Below are positions 26,384 through 46,450 of a stretch of DNA of 64,000 bases, piece after piece. The DNA lies in the NCBI RefSeq assembly GCF_002795825.1, contig NZ_CP018800.1, positions 2,106,001 through 2,170,000 of the forward strand, read 5' to 3'. Each line of letters opens with the position of its first letter. The first letter of the stretch is position 1. Origin of the DNA: Mariprofundus ferrinatatus. Lineage in GTDB: Bacteria; Pseudomonadota; Zetaproteobacteria; Mariprofundales; Mariprofundaceae. The notes below the pieces were generated by a model. The model made no database searches, was not told the origin of the DNA, and saw only the letters and a list, made by a program, of their open reading frames with translations. A program made the translations under genes and the position numbers.

Positions 26384-27220
26384 TTACCTGAACAGTGAAA
26401 GAACGTTCTGCGAAGACTGGTTGGCCTGAGCCAGCATCGATGTGCCGGCCTGCACCAGAACCTGAGACTTCGTGAAGTCAGCCATCTCCTTCGCCATGTC
26501 GGCATCCTTGATGGTTGAGATCGAGGCACTTACCTGCTCCATCTGAGTCGCCAGATTAGCACTTACGTAGCTCAACTGGTTCACAGCAGCACCAAACGAA
26601 GCACGGTCTGTAGTCAGGCCGTCCAGTGCAGTATTGAGGGTGTCAATAGCTGTAGCTGCACCCGATGCAGTAGTGAGGTCAATAGCAGCAATACCCAGGC
26701 CGGTTGTGGCTGTGGTAAAGTCTGCACTGAAATCAACCGCCACCTGGTCATTAGCACTGTTTGCAGCGCCAACCTGGAAGGTGGTAGTTGAAGCCCCGGA
26801 ACCGTCGAGCAGCTTGGTACCGTTGTAGTTAACACCGTTGGCGATTTTGTCGATCTGACCAAGAAGGTTAGCGGCCTCGCCAGCCAGCTTGGTGCGCTCA
26901 TTTGCACCGTTGTTCGCACTTGCAGCCTGAGTTGCCAGAACCTGCAAACGACGAACCATGTTCTCAATCTCATTTACACCAGATTCAGCAGTTTTCACCA
27001 TGGCGGTTGCCTGAAGTGAATTCTGAGAAGCTGCTTCCAGCTTACCCTTCTCGCCCTGAAGCTTGGCTGAAATCGCATAACCTGCTGCATCGTCTGATGC
27101 AGAGTTAATCCGGAAGCCCGAAGACAGGCGCTCCAGTGACTTGTTCATGTTTGACGAGTTGATGTTCATGTTCTTCAGGGCTGAGATTGAACCCATGTTG
27201 GTTTGTACGGACATTGCCAT
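26384..27220 (-). CDS. fliC: flagellin, copy 2
   Basis: A 278-residue flagellin identical to copy 1 except for Ala at residue 2; the genes differ at only a handful of mostly silent bases. D0/D1 ends are conserved and the middle is short and Ser/Thr-rich. It has its own sigma-28 promoter (27328-27354). It is the flagellin nearest to the giant glycosyltransferase, which is transcribed away from it. Confidence 0.97.
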   Translation of the reverse strand: MAMSVQTNMGSISALKNMNINSSNMNKSLERLSSGFRINSASDDAAGYAISAKLQGEKGKLEAASQNSLQATAMVKTAESGVNEIENMVRRLQVLATQAASANNGANERTKLAGEAANLLGQIDKIANGVNYNGTKLLDGSGASTTTFQVGAANSANDQVAVDFSADFTTATTGLGIAAIDLTTASGAATAIDTLNTALDGLTTDRASFGAAVNQLSYVSANLATQMEQVSASISTIKDADMAKEMADFTKSQVLVQAGTSMLAQANQSSQNVLSLFR

Positions 27221-27498: not shown

Positions 27499-27514
27499 TG
27501 GCCCTTCTCTTGCT
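27499..27514 (+). promoter_or_regulatory. sigma-54 promoter of the giant glycosyltransferase gene
   Basis: TGGCCCTTCTCTTGCT fits TGGCACG-N4-TTGCW with two mismatches and exact spacing. RNA should start near 27525, leaving a leader of about 50 bases with GGGAG before the ATG at 27576. The rest of the 27355-27575 gap shows only drifted similarity to the fliC1 upstream region. Confidence 0.65.
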
Positions 27515-27575
27515 TTGTGTTTTCGCAACAGTGCCTAAGGGATTGGGCTGACTGCCACCTGTGGGAGATATACAC

Positions 27576-30500: not shown

Positions 30501-31772
30501 CTTCTGGCCGCCAAGAATGCGGGTGAGTTCAAAAGCTTTGAGACCCTGAGAGCACCGAGGTTTTCCATTATCATTCCTACTAGGGAACGCCACGACACGT
30601 TGCAGTCAGCGATTGAGAGTGCGTTGAATCAGCAGGAGTTCGATGATTATGAGATCATCGTCATGGACAACCTCAGTTCAGAGGATACCTATAATGTAGT
30701 TTCCTCCTTCAGCGATGATAAAATCAAGTACTTCCGCTCATCGGAAAGGTTACCGATGAATGAGAACTGGGAGCTAGGATTTAGTCATAGCCAAGGCGAA
30801 TATGTATTTTTTCTCGGCGACGATGATGCCATCATGCCGGATGCTCTCGTCATTGCAGATGCATTAATCAGAAAATATCAAAGTGACATTGTGACATGGA
30901 GAAAAGCAGTCTATTGGTGGTCTAACTCTATCGTCCCCTTCCAGCGGGGAAGGCTTCACGCCTCTCTGAGAGAGAAAAGCATCAGCCTGATGAACTCTAG
31001 GGAGATGCTAAAGAAGTACTGTGCTCACAAAATTGTCTATGATGACCTCCCTGGCCTCTACAACTCTTTCGTACATCGAAAGATAATTGACAAGATAAAA
31101 TCGATGCATGGGCGCTATTTTATAACCCAGAACCCAGATGCATCCTCAGCAATTCTAAATGCATATTTTTCAGACCAATACTGCTACACCGATAGAGCCC
31201 TATCTCTATCTGGCAACTCCAAAAACAGTGCTGGGTCTAGCTATATGTGGTCGCATTTGCTGAATAAAGACCAAAAAGAAAAATTAACGCAATGGAATGC
31301 AGAACTTCCCCAGCAGATAGAGTTTACGCAAAATGGCTGCAAACGAACCATCGACTATGGAAAATTCTGTAAAGAACAGATAACAGACTCAACAATGCTG
31401 CCTGTGCTAATGGCGAGAGAATTGCTTGTGAATAAAGAAATATTCTTTCCAGATGACGCAGAGATCAACTTCGATCCCCCTGCCCTTTTGAATGCCATGG
31501 CTGGGAGCATAAATATAAATCCTCATAGATATGAACAAACTCTCACGGAGATAAAGGAACTAGCAAAAATTCATAGCCTAAGCATCGACTTCTCTAAGAT
31601 TCCAGAAAAGATTGCTTTCGATCACGCTCCACTTCAGGGGTTCAACCCCAATTCAATGATGATAAGTATCAACTGTGCTCAGTGCGGCATTGAGACCGCT
31701 GCACATGCAGCCAAAGCATTGCAAAGCATCTGGACCGATTGGCATGCTTGGCTTGCAGAAATCAATCGATAA
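27576..31772 (+). CDS. giant fused glycosyltransferase: TPR + GT41/SPINDLY type + methyltransferase-like + GT2
   Basis: A 1398-residue cytoplasmic protein. TPR-like helices occupy about residues 10-130. A GT41 (O-GlcNAc-transferase/SPINDLY-like) catalytic region spans about 199-560, with RLKIAYVSADFNAHPVGMF, DILIDLGG-type and PYNGTTTTCDSLIMGAPVVT (around 456) signatures. A degenerate Rossmann methyltransferase-like part lies at about 605-760 (MRVLDLSPEYGCF). A helical linker leads to a GT2 domain from about 991 (FSIIIPTRERHDTLQSAIES) with the DxD-type GDDDA near 1078. The ATG at 27576 follows GGGAG by eight bases. Position beside flagellin and a sigma-54 site suggest flagellin O-glycosylation, with GT41 adding the first sugar and GT2 extending it (inference). 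Confidence 0.88.
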   Translation: MTKTNSLSALKLTKKIRKYMESGDINNAELVCDNALPKNKEDPDFLFQVGYVYYVRKRYSEAAEALRKVLQVRPRDPSARLTLWGVYRDAEDFDQMLTLAHEFARAPLSADELLLAFRSYLAVLDWKRAEKIQAQVIELLHHGKMTPTLASAVFIELCTIPSLSSEIVYNIHRNWGDNLVGSVQPFYTSNTPAPSVNERLKIAYVSADFNAHPVGMFMHQLIRLHDKTKFEVYCYAHIEKEDSMTRYFRTHAEHFIDITDLNDGQLAKHIHTDGVHILIDLGGFTSNSRVGSLAYKPAPVQISYLGYPNTTGLPTVDYRITDRFAECDEGTRYVEKLLYMPQSFLCYSAQLAPPPANGAPVERNGFITFGSLNHLRKLTPQTIEAWSRILNRVPGSKFVMKARSVESGGAIILDNILREFASHGIEAERILFLPYVDSHKEHMLQYNEIDIVLDTFPYNGTTTTCDSLIMGAPVVTIIGKTHAQRVSYSILKNIGYEETITDSVDSYVEKAVQLAGQPENLSMLRKVLPALFKHSSLHQPDQFTRQMEDLFLQAWQEKMGEAAFTKAVAATMNDDISIMVPQDLNEITTYVLSEQGDWYEDELRFLRLITKPGMRVLDLSPEYGCFCLSLAKQVGEAGKVLALQSDASKRKLLEESTRLNEFDWLQIESGNNMSAVLQGGIDIIIHPSGGVDSISHKLDIPADSSPVVMLHGIDKGGINTSLIMHMQQLGYIPYRLLPGLNTLIAITEDYSPGSWHQQLFFCKPERADALASEGFLIQQELESIELPDDQSYWINAIEHRPFADGLLPRWIEQVKAQQVSKEWELVQAALCAYAMANQSDTTTEQRYAFLSASLNILLNTEGLLSNTARLSTVVRIASELGNYNAAKQASEMVAEGIKTLQEFTASEPFLPMSKKHDSETVHNNLAEWMLAQALAQAELLINPTSFSSSLEHLTQLNAELSNLGLPNEELKYREKLLAAKNAGEFKSFETLRAPRFSIIIPTRERHDTLQSAIESALNQQEFDDYEIIVMDNLSSEDTYNVVSSFSDDKIKYFRSSERLPMNENWELGFSHSQGEYVFFLGDDDAIMPDALVIADALIRKYQSDIVTWRKAVYWWSNSIVPFQRGRLHASLREKSISLMNSREMLKKYCAHKIVYDDLPGLYNSFVHRKIIDKIKSMHGRYFITQNPDASSAILNAYFSDQYCYTDRALSLSGNSKNSAGSSYMWSHLLNKDQKEKLTQWNAELPQQIEFTQNGCKRTIDYGKFCKEQITDSTMLPVLMARELLVNKEIFFPDDAEINFDPPALLNAMAGSININPHRYEQTLTEIKELAKIHSLSIDFSKIPEKIAFDHAPLQGFNPNSMMISINCAQCGIETAAHAAKALQSIWTDWHAWLAEINR

Positions 31773-32387: not shown

Positions 32388-33185
32388 TTAATCAATTCGT
32401 TTTAGAAAACCGTCCCACGATGCCGATAAGACAATTTTGTGCTCGATCTGCTTGTCGATTTCAAAACGGATGTTACCCCCCCGGCGTTCACAACGGTCAA
32501 GGTATTCAAGCAACGCAGTCTTTGGGTTATTACCCTTACCCCATGGGCGGTCGATCACGAAATCCTCCGGCATATCCTCCAGCCCTGAGTCCCAGACTAC
32601 ACAATAGCTTCCTACAGTTGTCAGCTCCGCATAAGCCTCTAATTCTGCCAACACGTGCTCATGGGTATGGTTTGAATCCAGAAACACCATGATCCGTTTA
32701 TATTTCGAGGCCAGATTCTTGACTTGGGTCACCACTTCAGGGTCGATAGAAGAACCCTGGATCATTTCAATTTTATGTGCCATTGGATGTGCTTCAATAG
32801 CCTTACGATTATGTGCCCGAATATCAATATCGACACCCACCACCTTGCGCCCAACCACTTTCGGATCAAGTACTGTTCCAGCTTCCACAGCATCACAGTA
32901 GTCCAATAAAGCCAGCATCGAAGCGCTCATGATCAATGAGCCACCATGGGCAATTCCCGTTTCAATGATAAGATCAGGTTTTACTCGCCAAACCAGCTCC
33001 TGAACAGCGTAAATATCCTGAGGGATCTGAATAATAGGACGTCCGAGCCAACTAAAATTATATGCATATTGGTGCCCACCCGCTTCTCGAATCCAGTTAT
33101 TTGAGAGATTCATAAAAGATAGGTCTTCCCCTATTTTCTTGACATTATTCTGCACAAATAGCTCGAACTTCCTGTTCTCATCCAT
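32388..33185 (-). CDS. CmcI/cephalosporin-hydroxylase-family methyltransferase
   Basis: The 265-residue protein matches the family of SAM-dependent O-methyltransferases annotated as cephalosporin hydroxylase or rhamnosyl O-methyltransferase. Signatures are LIIETGIAHGGSLIMSASML (SAM site, about residue 72), GVDIDIRAHN and the metal-binding VFLDSNHTHEHVLAELE. It overlaps the FkbM gene upstream by 8 bases and is the last gene of the operon. Likely methylates a hydroxyl on the sugar made or attached by this island. Confidence 0.85.
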   Translation of the reverse strand: MDENRKFELFVQNNVKKIGEDLSFMNLSNNWIREAGGHQYAYNFSWLGRPIIQIPQDIYAVQELVWRVKPDLIIETGIAHGGSLIMSASMLALLDYCDAVEAGTVLDPKVVGRKVVGVDIDIRAHNRKAIEAHPMAHKIEMIQGSSIDPEVVTQVKNLASKYKRIMVFLDSNHTHEHVLAELEAYAELTTVGSYCVVWDSGLEDMPEDFVIDRPWGKGNNPKTALLEYLDRCERRGGNIRFEIDKQIEHKIVLSASWDGFLKRID

Positions 33186-34374
33186 AATTAATCTCCTTTG
33201 TTTTCATAGAAGCCGGAACTGCATAACAGACAGTTTCCCACAACGAACCAGCTGCATGATGCCTGATGAATAGATCATAAAAAGAAAAATGATCGTGAAT
33301 GAATAAAGGGATATCCAACAAGTGGCTAGTCTGATGGTAAATACAAACCGCCAATTTCGGCTTGCATCGTTTGATGACCTCCCTCGCCCCATCCAATGCA
33401 TCCAGTTCAGCGCCTTCGATATCCATTTTGATCATTGTCGGGCAACTATTTACGAGGAAATCATCCAGGCTTATTGATGGAACGTCTCCTTCGACAGCCT
33501 GATCCCTACAGTTATGAAAATCCGAACCTTTGGATCGACCCACTGTGTTACCGACTGCAGAGTGAATAACCTCCACATCCTCAAACCCGTATTTATTCAA
33601 CGATTGAATCGCCCCGGCGATATTCACCTTATCAACATCAAAGCCGATGGCGCTAAATGCCCCTATTCCGGAATCCTGCATGAAGGAAAAATAGGAAAGC
33701 AGAGTATCGCCATCAAAACTGCCGCAATCAATCAACAACTCCCCTTCTGAAAAGCTGAATATATCTTTCTGGAAGTATTGCGGATAGCAGGCGGAGTTCG
33801 CCAGCAACACGTTTCCTGGCATTGAGAAATGAAATTGCTGGAACATGCGGGCCTTTGCGACATCCATTAAGATCTTACGTGATGCACTGTCTGCGAGCAG
33901 ATGAAACAATTCAGAAAACTTGCCCCTGTTCCGATACAGCCAGTGACCGGAAAAATACCCGACAGAACCATCCTGTTCTGCAAATAGATAGGAAAACCCT
34001 TGGGCATCAAGCATATCCTGGATTCCAGAGGTAATCATCGCAGCAATCACTACAAGCGGAGCATGTTGATCGGAGAACAGACTGTCAGGGCTGCAAACCG
34101 GAATACCTGCAATCTCACCACCCCACTTTTCCTCATTGCTATCGACGCAATAGGCAGGCGCTATTCCATAGCGCGCTTTCCAGGCATTGATAACACTTAG
34201 GGCAAAACGACCCGCGCCATAAAGAACGATATTTTCCGAATGAACGAGCAATGAATCAGGGTCGTTCTTTACGAACAACGGATGCTGCATGGCCATACTA
34301 TCACACACTTGCCATAGCTCTTCCGGACTGCCGGCTCTCCGAAGCTGTAAATAGCAGTTAGCAAAATCCATCAA
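33178..34374 (-). CDS. FkbM-family methyltransferase with N-terminal nucleotide-binding-like domain, copy A
   Basis: The 398-residue product has an N-terminal Rossmann-like region (IVLYGAGRFALSVINAW, then AYCVDSNEEKWGGEIAGIPV). The FkbM methyltransferase domain follows from about residue 215 (LLIDCGSFDGDTLLSYF; later MIKMDIEGAELDALDGA). The same two-part layout occurs in the gene at 37716. It overlaps the radical SAM gene by four bases (ATGA). FkbM enzymes O-methylate sugars or related hydroxyls; the substrate here is unknown. Confidence 0.85.
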   Translation of the reverse strand: MMDFANCYLQLRRAGSPEELWQVCDSMAMQHPLFVKNDPDSLLVHSENIVLYGAGRFALSVINAWKARYGIAPAYCVDSNEEKWGGEIAGIPVCSPDSLFSDQHAPLVVIAAMITSGIQDMLDAQGFSYLFAEQDGSVGYFSGHWLYRNRGKFSELFHLLADSASRKILMDVAKARMFQQFHFSMPGNVLLANSACYPQYFQKDIFSFSEGELLIDCGSFDGDTLLSYFSFMQDSGIGAFSAIGFDVDKVNIAGAIQSLNKYGFEDVEVIHSAVGNTVGRSKGSDFHNCRDQAVEGDVPSISLDDFLVNSCPTMIKMDIEGAELDALDGAREVIKRCKPKLAVCIYHQTSHLLDIPLFIHDHFSFYDLFIRHHAAGSLWETVCYAVPASMKTKEINYG

Positions 34375-36077
34375 TGGCTACTCCACGATGGCAGGACGGC
34401 GAACGATTCGATCATCCCTTCAATGTTCTGCCTGTATGTCTCGAACATCTGTTTTGACAATGATTCTGTCGCTACAAGCTTGGGAATCCTGTTTACGTAT
34501 TCCTGGGCTAAATCATCCATACCCAGTTCGTGATAACATTTTGCAATACAAGCAACGGCAACGATATGCCATGGATGGTTGTTCACTATCTTATCCAGCT
34601 TGGGAACAATTGTATCGTAGTGGCCATGCTCGATATTATAGTTATGGAAGAAATTCAGTTTGATATTGTAATCATACACAAGTTCAAAAAGTTCTTTGCC
34701 CGAAATCTCTTCGGTATCGAAAGGCCGCTCCCTGAACCCCTGAGTCGAGCTATCCCAGACCTCGATTAACTTCTCCTCAGAAATCTCTCCTTTTTCAATC
34801 AACACATCCGTCATCGTCGTTCCTGGATACGGGTATGCAATAAAGAAGGTAATCCAGTCTACAGGCGCCGTCCTCAAAAACTCAAATGTCTCATCCATCA
34901 ACTCTCGCGTTTCTCCCGGCGATCCAATGACAATATTCACCCCGGTAAAGACGCCGCGACTACGGGTGAAATCAAGGAGTCTCAATGCCTTTTCGATATC
35001 TACCCGTTTTTTTATAATCTTTTGCTGAACATATTTCGAGCCCGACTCAAGTGGAATCGTCACTGCTTCCAACCCGTGATCGACAAGAGTGTCGATCATC
35101 TCTTCATTGAACACGGAGACCGCCAATCCTGCGGGCACACTCAAATCAAACTTTAGCTCCTTTCTTTTCACTTCTTTGAAAAAGTCGAAGAAATATTCTT
35201 TATTCGAACCAAAGAGATCGTCCACAATATTAATCTGGTTCACGCCATATTCGTTGATCAGATATTCAATTTCTCTCATCATGTATGCGATGCTATTAAA
35301 ATAAATTTTCTTGCCGTGAACCTTGCTTGCAGAGCAGTAGGTGCAGGGATACGGACAACCCCGGGACATAAATATTGTAGCAATTCTGGCCCCTTCCTTT
35401 TTGATCGGAGCGGTGGACTCATGCGCCATCAAATAATCCATATCGAGCAATTCGTACGGGTATCTCGGAATCCGGTCCAGATCGTAGAGGACCTGTCCCA
35501 TATTCATGATATTGTGCAAACCGGTCACTATTCCTGGAACGGAACTGATATCATCACCATTTTCAAGACATGTCAGCAATTGAGGGAATGAGAGGTCTCC
35601 CGGACCTCTGATCAGAAAGTCGATACTGTCATTAACAATGATGTGTGAACTAAACGTCGTAGCATGCATGCCGCCAACAATAATTTTCGTTTCTGGCCAC
35701 CTCGCTTTGCACATTTCAGCAACTTTCAATGTGATCGAATGACCATTGGAGAAGTTCAAGGACAATCCAATAAAGTCGGGAGCACAGCCAACCGCATCCA
35801 GTTTCATCGAGATAAACTCTTCAATGGTTGTGCCATGAATCCGATCACGCTTTACCGCTTTATGAAGCTCCATCATCAGATCGAGGATCTGCAGATCGTG
35901 ATGCGGCAACTCCTGTTTGCACCACGCGGCAAGTGTCATCACCCCGAGTGGATAGGATATATATATCGGAACATCTCTCGCCTTGCCATCGAGCATCTCT
36001 TCCATAATTTTCAAAGGGACACCAAATGAATTAATGAGCAGCGTCTTCTTCGACTTCGTATCTCTGTTTATCACCAA
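34371..36077 (-). CDS. B12-binding-type radical SAM protein, copy A
   Basis: A 568-residue protein with an N-terminal cobalamin-binding-like Rossmann domain (PDFIGLSLNFSNGH, KIIVGGMHATTF; the usual DxHxxG histidine loop is not obvious). The radical SAM core carries CPYPCTYC (about residues 240-248) and the SAM-contact MSRGC region. A C-terminal TPR-like tail (WHIVAVACIAKCYHELGMDDLAQEY) completes it. Family members perform C- or P-methylation or ring rearrangements. It sits 4 bases downstream of a second protein with the same layout; the pair is flanked by FkbM genes. Confidence 0.88.
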   Translation of the reverse strand: MVINRDTKSKKTLLINSFGVPLKIMEEMLDGKARDVPIYISYPLGVMTLAAWCKQELPHHDLQILDLMMELHKAVKRDRIHGTTIEEFISMKLDAVGCAPDFIGLSLNFSNGHSITLKVAEMCKARWPETKIIVGGMHATTFSSHIIVNDSIDFLIRGPGDLSFPQLLTCLENGDDISSVPGIVTGLHNIMNMGQVLYDLDRIPRYPYELLDMDYLMAHESTAPIKKEGARIATIFMSRGCPYPCTYCSASKVHGKKIYFNSIAYMMREIEYLINEYGVNQINIVDDLFGSNKEYFFDFFKEVKRKELKFDLSVPAGLAVSVFNEEMIDTLVDHGLEAVTIPLESGSKYVQQKIIKKRVDIEKALRLLDFTRSRGVFTGVNIVIGSPGETRELMDETFEFLRTAPVDWITFFIAYPYPGTTMTDVLIEKGEISEEKLIEVWDSSTQGFRERPFDTEEISGKELFELVYDYNIKLNFFHNYNIEHGHYDTIVPKLDKIVNNHPWHIVAVACIAKCYHELGMDDLAQEYVNRIPKLVATESLSKQMFETYRQNIEGMIESFAVLPSWSSH

Positions 36078-36081
36078 CTGA

Positions 36082-37731
36082 TTACCCCTCTACCGGCGAC
36101 TTAAGCAAACCATATTTCACAGCCTTGGACCTCCACCACTCATCACTGGCAACAATCTCGTTGAACTTTTTCATACACTTGTCTGCAGAGGCCAAATCCA
36201 TACCGGACAATTTACAGGCCATCCCCAGAAAATATTGGCCAAATGCGTGATCTGGATATTTCTCACAAACATTCTTGAAGTACTTAATCGCGGTAGAGTA
36301 ATTCTCAATTTTCATATTGTGATTTTCAACGAAGTTCGCGACCAAGTTCATATGATAGGCGATATCGGCAATTGCATCCGGGTCAACGCCAGGCGCCCTA
36401 ATCACCGATTTGGTATTGATAAAATCGAGTGGGTTGCTGTTCTCGATGTAGCCGTTATCAGCACAGATATCGTAGAGTCTGCTACCGAAGATCGGAATTG
36501 CACAATAGATATGTGCCCAATCGAAACCGCTGTCAATCATCATCTCGAGCGTCTCCTGCCGATGCTCATCCATCTCGCCAGGCAAACCAATCACAATAAA
36601 GACATGGCTCTGCACGCCATGCCTGCGAAGGGCCTCCACAGCTGGCTTAATCAGCTTCTTCTTCAACGGCTTCTTAATCAGGTGATCGAGCACATAATCG
36701 GAACCTGACTCTACGGCTAATGCCACGGTTGAAACCCCGGCTTTAGCAAACAGTTCGGCCACCTCATCGTCGATGGCATAGACTGCCACCCCATTGGGGA
36801 ACTCGATTCGAATATCGAGGTCAATCAAGCGCCGCAGAACATCCTTGGCGCGTTCCTTATCATGAAAGAAGTGGTCATCCTCGATCATCAACACAGTCAG
36901 CCCGAACTCGTCGCGCATGCGTTTGACCTCCGCCTCCACACGATCAACTGACATTGTGCGCACCGCCCGCCCGTGCAGCGATGGATTAGAGCAGAAGACA
37001 CAGAGAAACGGGCAACCGCGAGAGGTATGGATCGCCATCTCCCGCTTCTTCATGCCGATATAGCGCTTATCGATTGAGCGGGAGTTGTAGTGGTTGAGAT
37101 CGATCGTCCGGTAATCAAGCGGTGGAATATCATCAAGATTCTGCACAAAGGTATGACCCGGCTGTTTACCAACAGCTAGGCCGCTACGGGTAATCCAAGA
37201 TTGGTGCGATTCCAGCAGTGCACTGCGGTCATCAGTATCAATTAAATCGGCTAGCGGGATCTCTCCCTCACCCTTGCAAACCGCATCGATCGAAGGGCAA
37301 TAGCCCAACATGCGATCGAATGCGGCGGAAGGCAGTCCTCCTCCAGCTGTCACCAAGACATTCGGTAACGCCTGTTTTACCACAGTGGCTATATCCTCGA
37401 TATAGCGAAAGGAGGAGTTGAACAGTGCTGACACCCCTACGATATCGGCTTGAAAACAAGTTAAAGCCTTCGCCACTTCATTATTCAGCATCGCCAATAC
37501 CTGATCCTGACTTACTCCTGGCTGCCCGAGTATCTGTGCCAGAGGCACATTCAGATCAAGAATCGCGGTTTCAACTGATGCTTCGCAACGCGCTTTGATA
37601 TAGGCATCCAGCGATAACACGCCATAGGGCATGGTAAAAGCAGGCAGAACATTTGTACGATCCTTGCTGATAAAATCATCCAGATTGAAATAGGGCGGAA
37701 TGACAAATAGGACATTTACTTGCTTTGGCAT
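36082..37731 (-). CDS. B12-binding-type radical SAM protein, copy B
   Basis: The 549-residue product starts MPKQVNVLFVIPPYFNLDD, nine bases after GGAGC; a longer frame upstream would lie inside the FkbM gene. It has a cobalamin-binding-like domain (ADIVGVSALFNSSFRYI, VLVTAGGGLPS), the radical SAM cluster CPFLCVFC near residue 240, and a C-terminal TPR-like repeat (AIKYFKNVCEKYPDHAFGQY). Distant similarity to copy A over the full length suggests an old tandem duplication. Substrate unknown. Confidence 0.88.
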   Translation of the reverse strand: MPKQVNVLFVIPPYFNLDDFISKDRTNVLPAFTMPYGVLSLDAYIKARCEASVETAILDLNVPLAQILGQPGVSQDQVLAMLNNEVAKALTCFQADIVGVSALFNSSFRYIEDIATVVKQALPNVLVTAGGGLPSAAFDRMLGYCPSIDAVCKGEGEIPLADLIDTDDRSALLESHQSWITRSGLAVGKQPGHTFVQNLDDIPPLDYRTIDLNHYNSRSIDKRYIGMKKREMAIHTSRGCPFLCVFCSNPSLHGRAVRTMSVDRVEAEVKRMRDEFGLTVLMIEDDHFFHDKERAKDVLRRLIDLDIRIEFPNGVAVYAIDDEVAELFAKAGVSTVALAVESGSDYVLDHLIKKPLKKKLIKPAVEALRRHGVQSHVFIVIGLPGEMDEHRQETLEMMIDSGFDWAHIYCAIPIFGSRLYDICADNGYIENSNPLDFINTKSVIRAPGVDPDAIADIAYHMNLVANFVENHNMKIENYSTAIKYFKNVCEKYPDHAFGQYFLGMACKLSGMDLASADKCMKKFNEIVASDEWWRSKAVKYGLLKSPVEG

Positions 37732-38879
37732 AATCGCTCCCTCGGAATGGCATAGACTACTGCTCCAGTGCCGCACCAGCTGTGCAGCCTGAACAGCATC
37801 TGGTAGTTCTCCAGCTGCTCGTCTAACAAGTATGGCAAAGCCCATAAGCCGAGCCGATTATGATATGCCGTTGCAGCCACAATAGGCCGCTGAATCTTTA
37901 ACATCTCTATTGCTCCCTTAAGTGCGGAAAACTCTCCACCCTCCAGATGCAGCTTCAGGTAATTCACCTCAGGAATAGCCAAGTCATCCAGTCGTACGAC
38001 TTCTACTTCATCGCTGCCAAGCACATTGAGTTGAGAAACGTAATCCAATCCCGCACTGAATGCAGACCTGCCTTTAAATTCTGCTACTGCCAGGCAGTAC
38101 GAACTGATTCTAACATCTGTGTCGGCCAATTCGGCACAAGCCTGGTAGTTCAACGGGTCAGCCTCAATCATAGTAATAGAACGAACATCCCCCATACGAT
38201 CCAGCCACTGCCGGCTCACTTCACCGAGGTGTGCCCCCACATCGACCAGTGATTCGTTCGGCCTCAGGCGCGACATCAGTTCGGGAATGAAATAGCGGTC
38301 GCCGGTCGTTACCGGTGCCCCTTCAAAGCTCCACTCCTCGCGCAGCGAATGCCAAGCGATAAACTGCAGGTGATGTGCCCGTGAAATATCATCATCCCAA
38401 CGTGCAAGTATGGTGGTGATTTTGGCCACATCGCCTTCCAATGGCCCCGAAAACCACCCGTTGCCGAGCGGATGTCGATCCCTGTATGCCTCGCAGATAT
38501 CGTAAAACGGCACCACATCCCGCCAGCCGGCTGCATGCAGTGCCAGCTCAAGCGGAACAATGGGAAGCGTGGCGATACAGACTGCAAGCATCGCTTCCCG
38601 CTTAAGTGTTTCAGGTACCGCATCAGCACTATAGAGCGAGACGCCTAGCCAGAAGGGATCGTTCTTATGCGCAGCAACATCGGCATCGACGACTGCCTCG
38701 ACCGGTATGCCGAGATAATTGAAATAGGATCTGGCCATGCGCCCAAGATTGCCGGCGCCGTAGAGCACCAGCGGAGACTCAACCGGGCGCGGTGCCACCA
38801 CCGGCTCTGCCTCAGCTATCCTCTTCAGCAAGACATTTGAAGCCGCCGGATCAGGCAGAGGAAAATGACGCTCGATCAC
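37716..38879 (-). CDS. FkbM-family methyltransferase with N-terminal nucleotide-binding-like domain, copy B
   Basis: A 387-residue protein: N-terminal LVLYGAGNLGRMARSYFNYLG Rossmann motif, then an FkbM domain from about residue 205 (SLVDVGAHLGEVSRQWLDRM, YLKLHLEGGEFSALKGAIE). In place of the KxDIEGxE block of copy A it reads KLHLEGGE, so the usual acidic residue is changed. It overlaps the GT4 gene (ATGA) and the radical SAM gene by 16 bases. Same architecture as the gene at 33178. Confidence 0.82.
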   Translation of the reverse strand: MIERHFPLPDPAASNVLLKRIAEAEPVVAPRPVESPLVLYGAGNLGRMARSYFNYLGIPVEAVVDADVAAHKNDPFWLGVSLYSADAVPETLKREAMLAVCIATLPIVPLELALHAAGWRDVVPFYDICEAYRDRHPLGNGWFSGPLEGDVAKITTILARWDDDISRAHHLQFIAWHSLREEWSFEGAPVTTGDRYFIPELMSRLRPNESLVDVGAHLGEVSRQWLDRMGDVRSITMIEADPLNYQACAELADTDVRISSYCLAVAEFKGRSAFSAGLDYVSQLNVLGSDEVEVVRLDDLAIPEVNYLKLHLEGGEFSALKGAIEMLKIQRPIVAATAYHNRLGLWALPYLLDEQLENYQMLFRLHSWCGTGAVVYAIPRERLCQSK

Positions 38880-40162
38880 TGTAGCCGCTTCTCAGTTGCA
38901 TGCCGCCAACTCTCCAGCTGTGCATCTTCAGGGAATGCCGAAGCAAAGTGGAATACACTCCCCTTCTTCTGTTCGAGCATTGCATGACGAAGATATCCTT
39001 GTGGTAACGCAATGCTTCCATCATCACTGTATATGGCGGAATCTGCAACAAAGGCATGGAACCACTCTGCCGGAGTAGCACCAAAGGCCTCTCGATAATC
39101 GAAGCGCTGCTTAGGCATCATGATCACCTCTTCGTAGAGCGCGGTAAACGACTCTCGCTGATGGGGAAATGAAAAGCGCTCGCGCACATCCTTTGCGGCA
39201 CGCACAGCCATCTCCAGTCGCACCTCGTCATTCTCCTGAATCCAGGCAATGCGCTCGGCTAGCTCATTACCATCATGCACGACGAACCCGTTCACACCAT
39301 CTTCGACTATCTCTCGCTCACACGGATGATCGAGCACGATTGGTACAACCCCCAGTGCCATTGCCTCCAGCAGGGCAATCTCGGCGGTGCCGTAGTGGGT
39401 CGGGTTGAGCAGATAGAGAAACAGATCCATTTCAGCAAGTTCAGCTGTCACATTAGTGGAGTAGCCAGCCACATTCAGCAATGCCGGTCGTCCGACTTCC
39501 CTGCAGCGCCTCTCGAGAATCTCCCGATTGGCCACATCACCGACCATGCGTACGGAAAATGTCGGATCATCAACTGAAGCCAGTAGCGAAATATAGTCAG
39601 GGTGCAGCTTGCTGAAGTTCAATGTGCCGAGATAGCCAGCCCGTAGAGAGGTCCGCGATTTGCGACGGATCGCAGGCATCTGCTCCATGCCTGCAGCGCT
39701 CGAGATGACCGCGAGCTTCCTCTGCACCTCGGCATCCAGCTGCGATATATTTTCAGCTTGAAGCGAGCAGGCGGAGGTCATCACAAAACGATGGCAAAGA
39801 TCAACCAAACCGGCAGGAATCACAGGGAAGTGAAGCCCCGATGTGTGACACCACACCACCACCCGCGCAGGAGGCAGTGGCTCACCGCAGATATATCGGA
39901 GCAGCGTCGGATGGTTCCAGAACTCCAGTTGTACAATATCTGCATCGGTGATCAGTAAGCGCAGACTCTTCTCATCCGGCGCGGTAGTGACCTTGCATCC
40001 GGCATGCACAAGAGGATCGAGAAACTGCTGCTTTTCAGGCTTTTCCAGGCAGACCAGATGATGCTCATGTAACGACTGCTGTTTTGCATCGATGAGGAGT
40101 CCAGATAGTGCCCGGCCGACTCCGCCTCCCATGTGTGCGGCGATATGGAGAATTCGGCTCAT
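38876..40162 (-). CDS. glycosyltransferase, GT4-like
   Basis: The 428-residue GT-B protein starts MSRILHIAAHMGGGVGRALSG. The C-terminal Rossmann half has RAGYLGTLNFSKLHPDYI and the donor-site block GTAEIALLEAMALGVVPIVLDHPCEREIVEDGVNGFVV, typical of GT4. A roughly 80-residue C-terminal extension (after ALYEEV) has no clear domain. It overlaps genes on both sides by four bases. It probably transfers a sugar made in this operon. Confidence 0.85.
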   Translation of the reverse strand: MSRILHIAAHMGGGVGRALSGLLIDAKQQSLHEHHLVCLEKPEKQQFLDPLVHAGCKVTTAPDEKSLRLLITDADIVQLEFWNHPTLLRYICGEPLPPARVVVWCHTSGLHFPVIPAGLVDLCHRFVMTSACSLQAENISQLDAEVQRKLAVISSAAGMEQMPAIRRKSRTSLRAGYLGTLNFSKLHPDYISLLASVDDPTFSVRMVGDVANREILERRCREVGRPALLNVAGYSTNVTAELAEMDLFLYLLNPTHYGTAEIALLEAMALGVVPIVLDHPCEREIVEDGVNGFVVHDGNELAERIAWIQENDEVRLEMAVRAAKDVRERFSFPHQRESFTALYEEVIMMPKQRFDYREAFGATPAEWFHAFVADSAIYSDDGSIALPQGYLRHAMLEQKKGSVFHFASAFPEDAQLESWRHATEKRLQ

Positions 40163-41229
40163 GAAGCAACTGACTGAACTGCAGCGCCTCCGGGCGCCCG
40201 ATCGTCGATTTCACTGCCTGCATAACTCAGCAATTTCGGCAACAACTCATCGCGATAGGCATCAATATTATCTGGCAGACAATGGGTCAGCTGGCCGCAT
40301 TTACTGCATACGCCGTTATCGCAGCGCCGACCCTCTAGATGTTGTCTACGTAGCGCGTTCATCGCACCGGAATTCCAGATCTCCTGTAAACTCTGCTTAT
40401 TGGCGTCACCGATCAGCAACTTCCGACCCCAATCGAGGAAACAGGAGCTCACCAGCCCATCGGCGTTAACCGACATCGAGTAGAAGATATAGGGGCAGGT
40501 ATCGGTTGGCGTCACCGGCTGCTGATAGATTCCCTCACGGATCGTAACACCTGTAAAGGCCTCAACATCAAATTCAGGCCAGCAGGGAGCAAAATTCTCA
40601 ATAAAGATTCGATCGCAATAGTTGCCAAATGTGTCGTAAAAATCCTGCTTCTGCGCTTCGCTGATCAGTTCGCCCGGAATCTTGATCGCCACCTCGCAAT
40701 CGCCCCTGTTTGCGTCCAGCCACTTCACGTTTTCAACAAACGCATCAAAGTCAAAGTCGAATCCAGTGAAGCGCTTATACTGTTCGTTGCTCATGCCGTC
40801 GACCGAGATATTGATCTTATCCAGCCCTGCCTCCAGAACCGGCCCAAGCCGCTCGGGCGTCATCAGAGATCCGTTTGTGGTGGTGTCGATGTAACCGATC
40901 TGGCCGCTCTGTTTGGCATAGGCCACCATGCGTGCCAGGTTCTTGTTAAGAAACGGTTCACCATCCTTATACATACGCAGCACCTTGACCGGCTCAGCAA
41001 ACCCATCCAGCTCATCAATCACCTTACAAAACAGGTCGAACTTCATCACCCCCTGAAAACGACCGGTCTGCTCGATAAGATCGCGATGGCCGGTCGGGCA
41101 AAACGGGCAGAGAAAATTGCATGCACTGGCCGGATCAACAAACAGTACGAATGGCGTAGCTAGCGGAATAACCTCCTGCAAAGGTGTCCGGTCATCCAGG
41201 TTGATACGTGGCTTGATTGCCGCTTTCAT
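40159..41229 (-). CDS. radical SAM/SPASM-domain protein
   Basis: The 356-residue product has the radical SAM cluster C37-x3-C41-x2-C44 (ACNFLCPFC). A C-terminal SPASM-type region with many cysteines (CPYIF, SSCFLDWG, GVCSKCGQLTHC) would hold auxiliary iron-sulfur clusters. SPASM enzymes commonly modify peptides, sugars or aminoglycosides, e.g. by dehydrogenation or epimerisation. It has its own AAGGAG and follows the sugar genes after a 28-base gap, the only real gap in the operon. Confidence 0.88.
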   Translation of the reverse strand: MKAAIKPRINLDDRTPLQEVIPLATPFVLFVDPASACNFLCPFCPTGHRDLIEQTGRFQGVMKFDLFCKVIDELDGFAEPVKVLRMYKDGEPFLNKNLARMVAYAKQSGQIGYIDTTTNGSLMTPERLGPVLEAGLDKINISVDGMSNEQYKRFTGFDFDFDAFVENVKWLDANRGDCEVAIKIPGELISEAQKQDFYDTFGNYCDRIFIENFAPCWPEFDVEAFTGVTIREGIYQQPVTPTDTCPYIFYSMSVNADGLVSSCFLDWGRKLLIGDANKQSLQEIWNSGAMNALRRQHLEGRRCDNGVCSKCGQLTHCLPDNIDAYRDELLPKLLSYAGSEIDDRAPGGAAVQSVAS

Positions 41230-41257: not shown

Positions 41258-42124
41258 TCATATGCCATGGGTATCTTTATGCCCTAGCAAGCAGGACTCC
41301 AACTTTGCTGTCGACCCCCAGAATGCCATCGGCTCATAGTCAGGATAAGGATAATGGCCAAGGTTAAGCGCCATCGATGCACCCTGTTCACGCAGGCGCT
41401 TCTCAATCAGATCGCGCACCCTTACCGGGCTTCCGGAACAGACATTCACAATTCCAAAATCCTCTTTTCTTTCAATAAGTTCAGAGAGAATAAGCGCTGC
41501 TTTCTCGACCGGAAGATAGTCGCGCAACTGCTCGCCTCCGGACATGTTAAATCTCTTATCGCCACTCGCAACCGCACGATCAAGCTGTGCCAGCAGACTG
41601 TTGGGATTCTGCCCCTCACCGAAGAGATAGAAGAGTCGCGCCCAAACCAACTGAAACGGCACTTTTTGCTGCAACTGCTGCAAGAACTTCCGCAACACAT
41701 CCTTGGCCAGCGGATAGGAGAGTTGCGGATCACTCACCAACGACTCATCCAGACACCCTTCTCGCATGCCGTATTCGAGACAGGTGCCGCTTACCAGTAC
41801 CTGCTTCAACCCCTGACTGACCAGCCTCTTGATAAAACGGTAATCGCCCTGAAGGTTAATTTCGTAATGGAATGGCTCGCGATAATTGGGCAATCCGTCC
41901 CAGGCCAGATGCACCAACACATCGGGCTCGCCCAACTCGGTAAGCAAAGGCGTCTGGCTGCCATGGATATCGCAACAGACAAATCGAACGGCATTGCGCC
42001 ACGGCATCTCCTCGATTCGGGCCGGATCGCGTCCGAGAACGATCGGCTCATGCCCTCGCTCCAGTAACCGCGTCACCACATGACGACCCACAAAACCTGA
42101 GCCGCCAGTCACCAGCACCTTCAC
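41258..42124 (-). CDS. NAD-dependent epimerase/dehydratase or 4-ketoreductase
   Basis: About 288 residues from a GTG at 42124, which overlaps the upstream stop (GTGA) and follows GGAG by eight bases. Extended SDR features: VLVTGGSGFVGRHVVTRLLE at the N-terminus and a Y-x3-K catalytic pair (SYPLAKDVL). Length and context suit a sugar 4-ketoreductase that would finish a CDP-deoxysugar after dehydration and C-methylation. An upstream ATG (42172) would add 16 residues inside the previous gene. Confidence 0.8.
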   Translation of the reverse strand: MKVLVTGGSGFVGRHVVTRLLERGHEPIVLGRDPARIEEMPWRNAVRFVCCDIHGSQTPLLTELGEPDVLVHLAWDGLPNYREPFHYEINLQGDYRFIKRLVSQGLKQVLVSGTCLEYGMREGCLDESLVSDPQLSYPLAKDVLRKFLQQLQQKVPFQLVWARLFYLFGEGQNPNSLLAQLDRAVASGDKRFNMSGGEQLRDYLPVEKAALILSELIERKEDFGIVNVCSGSPVRVRDLIEKRLREQGASMALNLGHYPYPDYEPMAFWGSTAKLESCLLGHKDTHGI

Positions 42125-43347
42125 CCGATTATCTCCAGCTTTGGCACCCCCACCACGAAACAACCACCCCAACCTCTGATCTGCTGCTGACGTTCGATAA
42201 TCTCCTCACAAATATTCCATGGGAGAATCAACAGGTAATCGGGTTTCACCTCGGCGATATGATCCGGATGCAAAATCGGGATATGGCTCCCTGGCATAAA
42301 TTTATCCTGCTTGGATGGCGCGGCATCACAAACAAAAGGTAACAGATCGGGGGTAACCCCGGCGAAATTAAGCAGCGTATTGCCCTTGGCCGCCGCTCCG
42401 TAAGCTGCCACCATCTTCCCTGCCCTCTTCTGCTCATGCAGGAAGGCCAACAGCTCCTCCCTGATCCTCTCCACCCGAGACTGCATGGCTCGATAGGTCT
42501 CGATATCCAGCAATCCGGCCTGCCGCTCCTCCTGCAGAACACTATTCACAGCTTCCGCCAACGCATGGGCAGAGCCGGTATGGGCTGCATAAACACGCAG
42601 GCTACCACCGTGGGTTGGCAGCTTTTCGACGTCGTAGAGTCGCAATCCAGCCAGCTGTAACACCGACTGTACCGCATGCAGCGACAGATAGGAGTAGTGC
42701 TCATGATAGATGGTATCGAACTGGGTAAACTCGATCAGGTTCTTCAAATGTGGAAATTCAAGGGTGATGGTTCCTTCAGGCTGAAGCAAGCGCACCAAGC
42801 CCAGCGCGAAGTCATTGATATCGGGCACATGCGCAAAGACATTGTTTCCTACAATCAGATCAGCCTTGTACCCATCGGAAACCAGTTCATCAGCCAGTTG
42901 CTCACCAAAGAATCGGCGCAGTACTGGCACTCCCAAAGCCTCGGAAGCTGCCGCCGTACTGTCAGTCGGCTCAATACCGAGACAGGGAATACCAGCTGCA
43001 ACGAAATTTCTCAGCAGGTATCCATCGTTGGAAGCGACCTCAACCACCCTCGACTCTGTTCCCAGACCCAACCGCTTGCCAATCATCCGGCAATAGTCTG
43101 CCGCATGCTTCAGCCAGCTATCCGACACAGAAGAGAAATAAGCGTAATCACTGGTAAAAAGCTCATCACAGCGGGAGAAGTCTTCGGTCTGCACCAGCCA
43201 GCACGATTCGCAAACAAAGATTCGCAACGGATAGGCTGGCTCAGGCTTATCAAGCTGGTCTGCGCTCAAATAGGCGTTGGATGGCGGCATGCTGCCAAGA
43301 TCGAGAAAAAGCGACTTCAGCTCACTGCCGCAATGGCGACACTTCAT
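42121..43347 (-). CDS. NDP-hexose C-methyltransferase (TylC3/TcaB9 type)
   Basis: A 408-residue protein with the three-part layout of sugar C-methyltransferases. These are an N-terminal zinc-binding CRHCG ... CESCW region (residues 3-50), a SAM domain (VVEVASNDGYLLRNFVAAGI, near 100; IYHEHYSYLSL) and a C-terminal Rossmann domain (AAYGAAAKGNTLLNFAG). These enzymes methylate C3 of 4-keto-6-deoxysugars. It lies between the 3,5-epimerase-like and the reductase genes, overlapping both by four bases. This implies a branched-chain deoxysugar. Confidence 0.88.
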   Translation of the reverse strand: MKCRHCGSELKSLFLDLGSMPPSNAYLSADQLDKPEPAYPLRIFVCESCWLVQTEDFSRCDELFTSDYAYFSSVSDSWLKHAADYCRMIGKRLGLGTESRVVEVASNDGYLLRNFVAAGIPCLGIEPTDSTAAASEALGVPVLRRFFGEQLADELVSDGYKADLIVGNNVFAHVPDINDFALGLVRLLQPEGTITLEFPHLKNLIEFTQFDTIYHEHYSYLSLHAVQSVLQLAGLRLYDVEKLPTHGGSLRVYAAHTGSAHALAEAVNSVLQEERQAGLLDIETYRAMQSRVERIREELLAFLHEQKRAGKMVAAYGAAAKGNTLLNFAGVTPDLLPFVCDAAPSKQDKFMPGSHIPILHPDHIAEVKPDYLLILPWNICEEIIERQQQIRGWGGCFVVGVPKLEIIG

Positions 43348-43901
43348 ATCATTAATCCTTGGAAGCTCTTATCCAGCAGGGGATGGTTGCGATCACGCTC
43401 CGACAACTCTGAAACCGGCAACGGCCAGACAATAGCCACGGCGGGATCATCAAAGCGTACCGCACCTTCGGACTCAGGCGTATAGGCAGCAGTATGCAGA
43501 TAGAGCAACTCTGAATCGGGCTCGAGCACCTGAAAGCCGTGCGCGCACCCCTCCTGGATGACCATCATCCTGCCGTTCTCCGGTGACAGTTCGCAGGCAG
43601 TCCATTTCAGGAAGGTTGGTGAACCGGCACGCAGATCAACGGCGACATCCCATACCCTCCCTTTAAGGCAGCGAACCAGCTTCATCTCCGCATGCGGCGG
43701 ATACTGAAAATGAAGGCCTCGAACTGCTCCGCATTTGTGGGTCAGTGAACGGTTGACCTGTACGATTTTGCGTTGCATCAAAACAGCAGCCAGTTCATCT
43801 TCGCAATAGAGTCTGGCAAAACGACCACGGCTGTCAGCCACAACCGATGACTCGACCTGATATACTCCATCAATCTCACACGCAAGGATGCGCATGCTCA
43901 T
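43344..43901 (-). CDS. rfbC: dTDP-4-dehydrorhamnose 3,5-epimerase-like protein
   Basis: The 185-residue cupin of the RmlC family has the active-site stretches GAVRGLHFQYPPHAEMKLVR (catalytic His) and IQEGCAHGFQVLEPDSELLY. In this operon it would act on a CDP-4-keto-6-deoxysugar rather than the dTDP form, so the family name may not describe its substrate. ATGs at 43901 and 43895 are both possible. Confidence 0.85.
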   Translation of the reverse strand: MSMRILACEIDGVYQVESSVVADSRGRFARLYCEDELAAVLMQRKIVQVNRSLTHKCGAVRGLHFQYPPHAEMKLVRCLKGRVWDVAVDLRAGSPTFLKWTACELSPENGRMMVIQEGCAHGFQVLEPDSELLYLHTAAYTPESEGAVRFDDPAVAIVWPLPVSELSERDRNHPLLDKSFQGLMI

Positions 43902-44992
43902 ATCCAGACAGCCCCTTTAGCATGGGCATCGTCTAAGAAAGTATCCAACTGCTTGGCACTAAGGACTTCACCGTTCTCAAGATACGCGCTATACCACTCT
44001 GCTGTATTGGCAATCGCCTGCTCAAGAGCCCAGACAGGCTGCCATTGCAGCTCGCGAACCGCCTTACCGATATCCAGCTGCAGTATCACCGCCTCATGCA
44101 GCTGCACCTCTTGGCCCACATGCCAGCTGAATCCCGGCCAGTAGACCTGCATGCGGCTCAGCAGTTCGCGTACACTGCATGTCCCTGTCGAATCTGGGCC
44201 GAAATTCCAGGCAGCAGCACAACCCCGCTCGCCGAGCAACAGGCGCTGACCCAGCAGCAGGTAACCCGAGAGCGCATCCAACACGTGCTGCCAAGGGCGA
44301 GTGGCATCTGGTGAGCGAATCTCTAGTTCACTGCCAGCTGCAACCGCCCGATAGAGATCGGGGATGAGACGATCCTCACTCCAGTCGCCACCACCGATCA
44401 CATTGCCGGCCCGCGCCGTCGCCAATAGCGGCGCCTCAGCCTCCGAAAAGAAGGAGCGACGATAACTGGAAGCGACCAACTCCGTAGCGGCCTTCGATGC
44501 TGAATAGGGATCATGCCCTCCAAGGGCATCCTCTTCGTTATAACCACGATCTAGGGATCTGTTGTCGTAACATTTATCCGAAGTGACCACCACGATCGCC
44601 TTCAATCCGGGCACGCTCCTGCACACCTCCAGCACATTCACCGTGCCGATTACATTCGTAGTCCAGGTTTCAACCGGCATATTGTAGGAGCGACGCACCA
44701 ATGGCTGGGCTGCCAGGTGAAAGACAACCTCGGGCTCGAATGCTCCAACAATCCGCCGCACCGCCTCAATATCGGCAATATCAATCCGATGATCCTCAAT
44801 TTCACCATCTAATAGCGCTTGGCAAAATTGCCAGTGCTCCGGGTCGGTATCGGGATCCAAACCAATTCCGGCCACCTTGGCGCCTAGTCGGTTCAACCAG
44901 ACAGAAAGCCAGCTGCCCTTGAAGCCAGTATGACCGGTAATCAATACCCGTTTGCCTTGATAGATGTCGCCAAACGACACTGCTGTCACCAT
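43898..44992 (-). CDS. rfbG: CDP-glucose 4,6-dehydratase
   Basis: About 364 residues from the ATG at 44992 (MVTAVSFGDIYQGKRVLITGHTGF split here at the motif GHTGFKGSW); ten more residues are possible from 45022. SDR features: GHTGFKGSWLSVWL glycine loop, VTSDKCYDN, and the catalytic YSASKAATE. RfbG converts CDP-glucose to CDP-4-keto-6-deoxyglucose using bound NAD. It overlaps rfbF by 7 bases. Confidence 0.92.
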   Translation of the reverse strand: MVTAVSFGDIYQGKRVLITGHTGFKGSWLSVWLNRLGAKVAGIGLDPDTDPEHWQFCQALLDGEIEDHRIDIADIEAVRRIVGAFEPEVVFHLAAQPLVRRSYNMPVETWTTNVIGTVNVLEVCRSVPGLKAIVVVTSDKCYDNRSLDRGYNEEDALGGHDPYSASKAATELVASSYRRSFFSEAEAPLLATARAGNVIGGGDWSEDRLIPDLYRAVAAGSELEIRSPDATRPWQHVLDALSGYLLLGQRLLLGERGCAAAWNFGPDSTGTCSVRELLSRMQVYWPGFSWHVGQEVQLHEAVILQLDIGKAVRELQWQPVWALEQAIANTAEWYSAYLENGEVLSAKQLDTFLDDAHAKGAVWI

Positions 44993-45756
44993 ACCATCCA
45001 AGGTGCCTCGCCACTCTCCCATAGTCCTTCAAGCCGTACCTTATCGCGCAGGGTATCCATCGGCTGCCAGAACCCTGCATGGCGATAGGCTGAAAGCTGA
45101 CCCTGTTCAGAGAGGCGCTGCAGTGGCTCCTTCTCCCAGACCGTTGCGTCACCTTTTATCAGCTTAAGCACTTCCGGCGACAGCACAAAATAGCCCCCAT
45201 TAATCCAGCCACCATCACCCTTTGGCTTCTCATTAAAGTGGTTGATGCGATCACCAGAGATCTCCAGTGAGCCAAAGCGTCCGGGTGGCTGCACTGCTGT
45301 CACCGTAGCCAGTAAGCCTTGCGCATTATGGAAGTCGATCAGTTTTCTGATATCAACATCACACAAACCATCGCCATAGGTGAAACAGAAGGGCTGATCT
45401 GGCTTCAAATGGTCAGCGACTCGTCGCATACGGCCACCCGTCTGTGTATTCTCACCGGTATCAACCAGCGTTACCCGCCACGGCTCAGCCATATTCTGAT
45501 GAACCTGCATAGAGTTATTTTGCATATCAAAGGTGACATCTGACATGTGCAGGAAGTAGTTGGCAAAATACTCCTTGATTAGATAACCCTTGTAGCCAAG
45601 GCAGATAATGAAATCGTTGATCCCATATGCACTGTAACTCTTCATAATATGCCAAAGAATCGGTTTGCTTCCAACATCCACCATCGGTTTTGGCCTCAAG
45701 TGAGTCTCCTCACTGATCCGCGTCCCGAGTCCTCCAGCCAGTATTACCGCTTGCAT
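44986..45756 (-). CDS. rfbF: glucose-1-phosphate cytidylyltransferase
   Basis: The 256-residue product starts MQAVILAGGLGTRISEETHL, the usual RfbF start and length; an upstream in-frame ATG (45813) adds 19 unrelated residues. Nucleotidyltransferase motifs are clear: GGLGTR, RPKPMV, FCFTYGDGLCDVD. It makes CDP-glucose from glucose-1-phosphate and CTP, the entry step of the pathway. It is the first gene of the 12-gene operon, downstream of a near-perfect sigma-54 promoter. Confidence 0.95.
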   Translation of the reverse strand: MQAVILAGGLGTRISEETHLRPKPMVDVGSKPILWHIMKSYSAYGINDFIICLGYKGYLIKEYFANYFLHMSDVTFDMQNNSMQVHQNMAEPWRVTLVDTGENTQTGGRMRRVADHLKPDQPFCFTYGDGLCDVDIRKLIDFHNAQGLLATVTAVQPPGRFGSLEISGDRINHFNEKPKGDGGWINGGYFVLSPEVLKLIKGDATVWEKEPLQRLSEQGQLSAYRHAGFWQPMDTLRDKVRLEGLWESGEAPWMVW

Positions 45757-45860
45757 ATGCCCATCCTTCGCCAGTTTCCGGAAGAAACTTGTGGTTCCAA
45801 CTTCATCCAGCAATAAAACTGGAATCTGCGAACAAACATTTACCTAATTCAAATAGATAG

Positions 45861-45876
45861 AGCAATTAAAGTGCCA
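45861..45876 (-). promoter_or_regulatory. sigma-54 promoter of the rfbF-led modification operon
   Basis: The minus strand reads TGGCACTTTAATTGCT, differing from TGGCACG-N4-TTGCW at one position only; spacing is exact. RNA should start near 45850, giving a leader of about 93 bases. It is the strongest sigma-54 match in the window and ties the sugar operon to the flagellar class of promoters. The rest of 45757-45967 shows nothing else clear. Confidence 0.75.
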
Positions 45877-45967
45877 AAGTTGAACGAACTTTTCCTACTC
45901 ATCGGATCAAATGCATCTCAGAAAAAACTATTACCACTTCTCACCCTAGAATGGTCCGGCAGTTACC

Positions 45968-46450
45968 CTACCCGAGGTAATGCCAGAGGGTAAACATTGC
46001 CGCCTGACCGCGGTAGTTGCCACCCTTGTCGATCAGGTTCCAGACCGTGGCATCCTGAATACGGAAGCGCCGGCCGCTGCTGGCAATCCGCACACCGGAG
46101 TAGTCGTCGATATAGCCGTTCTCCGTGACCCTTTTCAACAGCGCATTTCGCTCAGCCTGCACACCCGCTTCTGCCGACAGCCTTGATGGCAGCTGCGTAA
46201 ACTCATGCCAATCCATCTCGAACAGTTGTTGGGCAGTATGGTTGGCGTAGTTGATGACCGGATCCTCCCCGGTTCCGTGTGAAAGCAGTGCGTATGGTGC
46301 GAAGTAGACCCTGCGGGCAGCAACTGCAGGATCGGAATCATCATCAAGCAGGCCGCAGCCGCTCCATCGTTTCAGGCTGTCACTGAGCAGCCGCAGCTGC
46401 TCAAGCTGATAGTCATTCGTTTCAGATGGCGGGTCAGTGCACTGCTTCAT
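45968..46450 (-). CDS. MEKHLA-domain protein
   Basis: The 160-residue product matches the MEKHLA domain, a PAS-like module: YFAPYALLSHGTGEDPVINY, LFEMDWHEFTQLPSRLSAE, then YSGVRIASSGRRFRI and TVWNLIDKGGNYRGQAAMF. In bacteria such proteins stand alone and their role is unknown. The ATG is one base after the permease stop, so the two are co-translated, suggesting that it senses or uses the transported compound. Confidence 0.85.
   Translation of the reverse strand: MKQCTDPPSETNDYQLEQLRLLSDSLKRWSGCGLLDDDSDPAVAARRVYFAPYALLSHGTGEDPVINYANHTAQQLFEMDWHEFTQLPSRLSAEAGVQAERNALLKRVTENGYIDDYSGVRIASSGRRFRIQDATVWNLIDKGGNYRGQAAMFTLWHYLG

Follow-up and report, generated by a model that had tools for sequence, protein, structure and literature searches.

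The rfbF gene of Mariprofundus ferrinatatus, which heads a nucleotide-sugar operon, is preceded by a -24/-12 element that is conserved in its clade and occurs there in association with flagellar genes. This element is very probably an RpoN promoter of the flagellar middle tier, its operon supplying a sugar that a neighbouring TPR-GT41 protein would place on flagellin. The window analysed is a 64-kb stretch (G000:C1:2106001-2170000) of the single 2,301,665-base contig of this probably iron-oxidising bacterium.

The site ahead of rfbF and its conservation

The predicted site, TGGCACTTTAATTGCT, lies on the minus strand and departs from the consensus TGGCACGNNNNTTGCW solely at position 7 (G to T), retaining the GG and GC dinucleotides at -24/-12 spacing (TGGCAC-N5-TTGCT). 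Its 3' end is 104 nt from the rfbF ATG at 45756, a start backed by a full-length TIGR02623 match from residue 1. It is the sole match to the consensus with at most one mismatch in the window and also tops the ranking there by a sigma-54 weight matrix, an approximate one with weights set from general base preferences rather than fitted. The sequence-only reading, which had given one mismatch, the best match in the window and a distance of about 105 bases, was thus borne out on all three. The consensus match by itself is not significant, since one match was found against 1.04 expected from shuffled windows (61 of 100 shuffles reach one), and significance from the window alone was accordingly rejected; a scan of the window at up to three mismatches (121 matches, 124 expected) was uninformative. 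Within the 300 nt 5' of rfbF, the score of 16.65 was reached by none of 500 dinucleotide shuffles. Genome-wide, TGGCAYN5TTGCW occurs eight times and a reversed control pattern five times, the eight including the rfbF site, one about 65 nt 5' of flgB, and one at TGGCATTAAATTTGCT (L057 1501-1516), 38 nt before a small pentapeptide-repeat-like gene that is itself downstream of a response-regulator gene. The predicted leader between promoter and rfbF could house an activator site; no sigma-70-like promoter was found and no terminator recognised in 45700-46050, nor was a sigma-28 promoter found for rfbF (best candidate 10/16, reached by 154 of 200 shuffles).

Comparison of the site among related genomes, which the sequence-only reading had suggested, was carried out across 74 Mariprofundaceae genomes holding 22 rfbF genes of at least 46% identity, 21 of them scored (all but the second G026 copy). 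Scores of 15.0-16.7 were obtained before four rfbF genes (G000, the genome under study, and G043, G057 and G053), which group together in the tree (94/88), and scores of at most 9.06 before the remaining 17, so that a strong site is present in 4/4 members of one clade and 0/17 others. TGGCAY-N5-TTGCT is retained 82-142 nt upstream in G043, G057 and G053 (each p 0.002 in shuffles of the 300-nt upstream stretch), and all four sites are beyond chance (each p <= 0.002). Outside the element, the upstream regions of the four align poorly and the genes further upstream differ, which implies that the element was either kept by selection or newly placed. At three of these four loci, the longest ORF adjoining on the upstream side runs opposite to the operon, which argues that the operon requires a promoter of its own.

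These data bear on whether the match is fortuitous, the operon being expressed from a sigma-70 promoter or by read-through from a MEKHLA-domain gene 211 nt upstream in the same orientation. The chance level of such matches in the window and the lack of a recognised terminator would permit this. We hold it to be very improbable, as the four clade members share the element at comparable distances although their flanks are unrelated, the interval holds no sigma-70-like site, and the relatives have other genes upstream; on the 4/4 conservation, a chance origin was rejected.

The neighbourhoods point to the flagellum. In G000, G043 and G053, flagellin lies 17-20 kb from the operon, which has the GT41 gene beside it. 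In G057, only about 0.6 kb of contig follows rfbF, so that flagellar linkage could not show, and a search of this 87% complete genome gave no true flagellin. No flagellar genes were found in 15 stretches fetched around the 17 site-less rfbF genes (all but those of G027 and G067).

The sugar operon, the transferase and the flagellar cascade

The operon comprises 12 genes in 13.4 kb, from rfbF down to 32388 (Table 1), most of them overlapping by 4 nt and with a largest gap of 28 nt; the larger overlaps (37, up to 43 nt) hinge on the chosen starts. In CDP-3,6-dideoxyhexose pathways of the rfbFGH type, the PLP-dependent 3-dehydrase RfbH follows rfbG. No RfbH-type (DegT/DnrJ/EryC1-type) 3-dehydrase was found among the 12 operon genes, which have a C-methyltransferase instead, so that a 3,6-dideoxyhexose is unlikely and the predicted product is likely a C-methyl-branched 6-deoxyhexose. 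Odd radical chemistry on the glycan also appears likely from the gene content. Of the three radical SAM proteins encoded in 34371-41229, two are B12-binding; the counterpart cluster of G053 encodes four proteins of radical SAM type.

Table 1. Predicted features of the sugar operon, its promoter region and the flagellar surroundings
Feature	Position	Strand	Evidence or remark
sigma-54 -24/-12 promoter (predicted), TGGCACTTTAATTGCT	45876 to 45861	minus	consensus match, weight matrix, conservation
predicted leader, promoter to rfbF start, 104 nt	45757..45860	minus	
rfbF, glucose-1-phosphate cytidylyltransferase	44986..45756	minus	TIGR02623 465 bits, cut-off 300
rfbG, CDP-glucose 4,6-dehydratase	43898..45022	minus	TIGR02622 455 bits, cut-off 278
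RmlC-type 3,5-epimerase	43344..43901	minus	PF00908, TIGR01221
sugar C-methyltransferase	42121..43347	minus	PF08421/PF13489/PF08484
SDR-type epimerase/reductase	41258..42124	minus	PF01370
radical SAM/SPASM protein	40159..41229	minus	PF04055, PF13186
GT4-type glycosyltransferase	38876..40162	minus	PF00534
FkbM-type methyltransferase	37716..38879	minus	PF05050
B12-binding radical SAM protein	36082..37731	minus	PF02310, PF04055; start chosen at ATG 37731
B12-binding radical SAM protein	34371..36077	minus	PF02310, PF04055
FkbM-type methyltransferase	33178..34374	minus	PF05050
CmcI/rhamnosyl O-methyltransferase-like, last operon gene	32388..33185	minus	PF04989
TPR + GT41 + GT2 protein, candidate flagellin glycosyltransferase	27561..31772	plus	PF13844, TPR families, PF00535; FlmG-like layout
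sigma-54-like site TGGCCCTTCTCTTGCT, 46 nt before GT41 ORF	27499..27514	plus	also in relatives
flagellin copy	26384..27220	minus	sigma-28-like box ~107 nt upstream
second flagellin copy, nearly identical	24181..25017	minus	sigma-28-like box ~108 nt upstream
NtrC-type activator	contig 2098695-2099186		genome search
NtrC-type activator, response-regulator type	window 419-913		genome search
FliA	7956-8795		

The operon and a candidate glycosyltransferase gene adjoin the flagellin genes (24181-27220). The transferase gene, convergent to the operon and divergent from the flagellins, encodes 1403 residues with TPR-type matches near residues 25-94 (under the Pfam cut-offs save TPR_19), GT41 from residue 195 and an additional GT2 at 1002-1108; the C-terminal part is shorter or different in relatives. 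A sigma-54-like site precedes this gene in 8 of the 11 relatives with a complete N-terminus (scores 11.2-15.1, p <= 0.013), G000 and G043, with near-identical flanks there, being counted as one observation; G050 and G054 have the weaker TGGTCTCATACTTGCT (score 8.76), and no such site was found upstream of the gene in G066. This comparison began from 15 rows, four of which (L116-L119) were left out because their matches start too far inside the gene, while L111 was left out of the scoring. Every one of the 11 genomes in which the N-terminus is complete has the gene within 10 kb of flagellin.

The boxes ahead of the two flagellins consist of a TAAAGTT-type element followed by GGCGATAG, with 13/16 matches to the sigma-28 consensus; as good a match arose in 2 and 1 of 200 shuffles. 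Both flagellins belong to a duplicated flagellin-flaG-fliS block at 20906-27220 that holds two near-identical flagellins along with copies of FlaG; G043 carries three flagellins of this kind. The genome encodes RpoN and six full NtrC-type activators, two in the flagellar region and four outside it. One of the six immediately precedes flgB, and the end of this activator gene holds a sigma-54 site some 65 nt from flgB; further sigma-54 sites occur before a motA-like gene and before a flagellar rod/hook gene at 10521. Taken at face value, the predicted promoters give a layout with sigma-54 for middle and sigma-28 for late flagellar genes. In Helicobacter pylori and Campylobacter jejuni, according to a review, the RpoN-dependent class includes flagellin glycosylation enzymes (PMC3930126).

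A different activator could act on the rfbF promoter, one answering to nitrogen or another nutrient signal, in which case RpoN would tie glycan supply to nutrition and not to flagellar assembly. The four full activators outside the flagellar region would be available for this; it is nevertheless improbable, given that clear sites of the same kind stand before flagellar genes and that the associated cluster is flagellar. A minor observation in the same region is a sigma-54-like site at 19323-19338, TGGCATGGTCAATGCT, identical in G043; it leaves only 10 nt to the earliest possible start of a lytic transglycosylase, whose true start is probably further downstream.

Flagellar and non-flagellar rfbF loci

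Named genomes provided at least 585 rfbF loci, of which the best 80 were taken and 78 kept (L152 and L190 had too little upstream sequence; L156 and L145 were scored over shorter stretches of 197 and 233 nt). Flagellar linkage was judged by tblastn with seven proteins of the window (E <= 1e-6, coverage 30%, up to 10 kb on each side), which classed 23 of these 78 loci as flagellar-linked and 55 as unlinked. A site scoring at least 12.6 precedes rfbF in 14/23 linked loci and 0/55 others (Fisher 8e-10 before kinship correction), the threshold having been picked after the scores were seen (lowering it to 12 gives 14 and 1, and to 11 gives 14 and 4); the best score among the 55 is 12.5, as against 16.65 for the G000 site. 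All 14 site-bearing loci, with flagellar genes beside them, are titled Pseudomonas and hence represent few independent events, and a kinship-corrected pair test had only three usable pairs. In an rfbF tree with 18 of the 21 family genes (all but L016, whose contig is also L131, L021 and the second G045 copy), the Mariprofundus-type sites fall among site-less family members, apart from the Pseudomonas ones, and gain and loss of the site amount to four changes, at least two of them forced by supported branches. Tree and counts are consistent with, though not proof of, at least two separate gains.

The site is absent from 9 of the 23 flagellar-linked loci (L142, L143, L153, L156, L157, L178, L189, L200 and L201), of which L142 and L153 are Pseudomonadales and five are presumably Betaproteobacteria, whose flagella are commonly under FlhDC control. 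Four of these nine (L142, L143, L153 and L157) have a stretch resembling GT41 on the strand of rfbF, 1.5-1.7 kb ahead of it, so another gene may come first at these loci.

Both surveys bear out the premise that operons of this type seldom have a sigma-54 promoter, the site being absent from all 55 non-flagellar named loci and from the 17 other family genes. Sigma-54 by itself is no proof of a flagellar destination, because it has been linked also to LPS and exopolysaccharide genes, as reported by Francke et al. (2011; PMC3162934). A genuine sigma-54 promoter might therefore drive synthesis of an LPS or capsule sugar, with RpoN acting through this general surface-polysaccharide link and the flagellar neighbourhood being incidental; the same cassette does occur in relatives' clusters that resemble O-antigen clusters, and the genome has one true rfbF only, so that its product could also supply LPS. 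We nonetheless consider an envelope destination unlikely, for non-flagellar rfbF genes lack the site and Pfam detected no flippase (Wzx), polymerase (Wzy) or ABC exporter domains in the 12 operon proteins or in 10 further ORFs scanned from the G043 and G053 clusters. Among six non-flagellar rfbF clusters sampled (one to three ORFs scanned in each), a PF01943 flippase is encoded in five and a Wzy_C protein in the remaining one (G050), and the genome's own Wzy_C genes lie elsewhere, at 571-573 kb of the 2.30-Mb contig. The proposal that sigma-54 signals a flagellar destination draws support from the joint presence of the site and flagellar neighbours in both Mariprofundus-type operons and Pseudomonas, and further from the sigma-54 site at the TPR-GT41 gene and the lack of flippase or polymerase genes in the operon.

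Proposed mechanism and related systems

In the mechanism that we favour, RpoN polymerase would sit at the -24/-12 element until a flagellar NtrC-type activator opens it for transcription of the whole operon. The encoded enzymes would make CDP-glucose and, from it, CDP-4-keto-6-deoxyglucose; an epimerase, a C-methyltransferase and a reductase would turn this into a branched 6-deoxyhexose that is then methylated further. The TPR-GT41 protein, its own gene under a sigma-54 site, would put the sugar on flagellin in the cytoplasm. Flagellin would be made later, from sigma-28 promoters, so that sugar and transferase would be ready ahead of their substrate. The suggested order thus has sugar and transferase in the sigma-54 tier and flagellin in the sigma-28 tier, and the scheme predicts a methylated CDP-derived flagellin glycan in iron-oxidising Zetaproteobacteria.

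RpoN control of flagellin glycosylation genes is already published (PMC8657755, PMC5368276), and the present operon is a well-supported further example. The GigX1-10 flagellin glycosylation island of Xanthomonas oryzae pv. oryzae, which a review (PMC8657755) places under RpoN2 and the flagellar activator FleQ, is alike in its regulation, whereas the cassette described here is CDP-glucose based and includes radical SAM enzymes. In H. pylori, transcription of the flagellin-modification gene jhp0106 from an RpoN promoter is reported to have been shown by mutation of the RpoN site (PMC5368276); that gene shares an operon with flaB and comes after it, while the sugar operon here has its own promoter and flagellin seems to be sigma-28 dependent. 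The Caulobacter protein FlmG, described as modifying flagellin in the cytoplasm, has a TPR N-terminal domain and a glycosyltransferase domain (PMC7591256), and the transferase next to the operon resembles it in domain layout (TPR plus GT-B-type transferase); FlmG works with pseudaminic acid and is under CtrA control, whereas the Mariprofundus protein adds a C-terminal GT2 and has a sigma-54 site. Our literature search returned no paper on flagellin glycosylation in Zetaproteobacteria and, for CDP-glucose with flagellin glycosylation, nothing but a review of dehydratases. What is new is modest: an example from Zetaproteobacteria based on a CDP-sugar, and a contrast, within one cassette, between copies in flagellar and in other settings.

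That contrast involves two sets of relatives. Pseudomonas flagellar islands (L137, L139, L144 and others) carry the same core, rfbF-rfbG-rfbC-CMT-SDR-CmcI, near flgK/flgL and, as in the Mariprofundus-type operon, a sigma-54-like site before rfbF, at 112-141 nt; they differ in the place of their rfbF in the tree and in the site sequence, mostly TGGCGCGTTTCCTGCA. The O-antigen-type clusters of the family (G045, G046, G048, G050 and others) share rfbF, rfbG and mostly the epimerase and C-methyltransferase, but have no sigma-54 site, no nearby flagellar genes, and a flippase or Wzy_C where scanned. It is an evenly balanced possibility that the Mariprofundus line and Pseudomonas each took over for the flagellum a CDP-sugar cassette that seems, in most relatives, to serve surface polysaccharides. 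There would then have been two or more such recruitments, and in each the cassette would have gained a sigma-54 promoter along with a location next to flagellar genes. If so, promoter class would predict the destination of a sugar pathway where its enzymes cannot, giving a testable rule by which nucleotide-sugar operons could be assigned to flagellum or cell envelope. Separately, the sugar cluster of G053 contains a second strong sigma-54-like site, TGGCACTAAGCATGCT (L035 6514-6529; score 14.7), 48 nt before a radical SAM gene.
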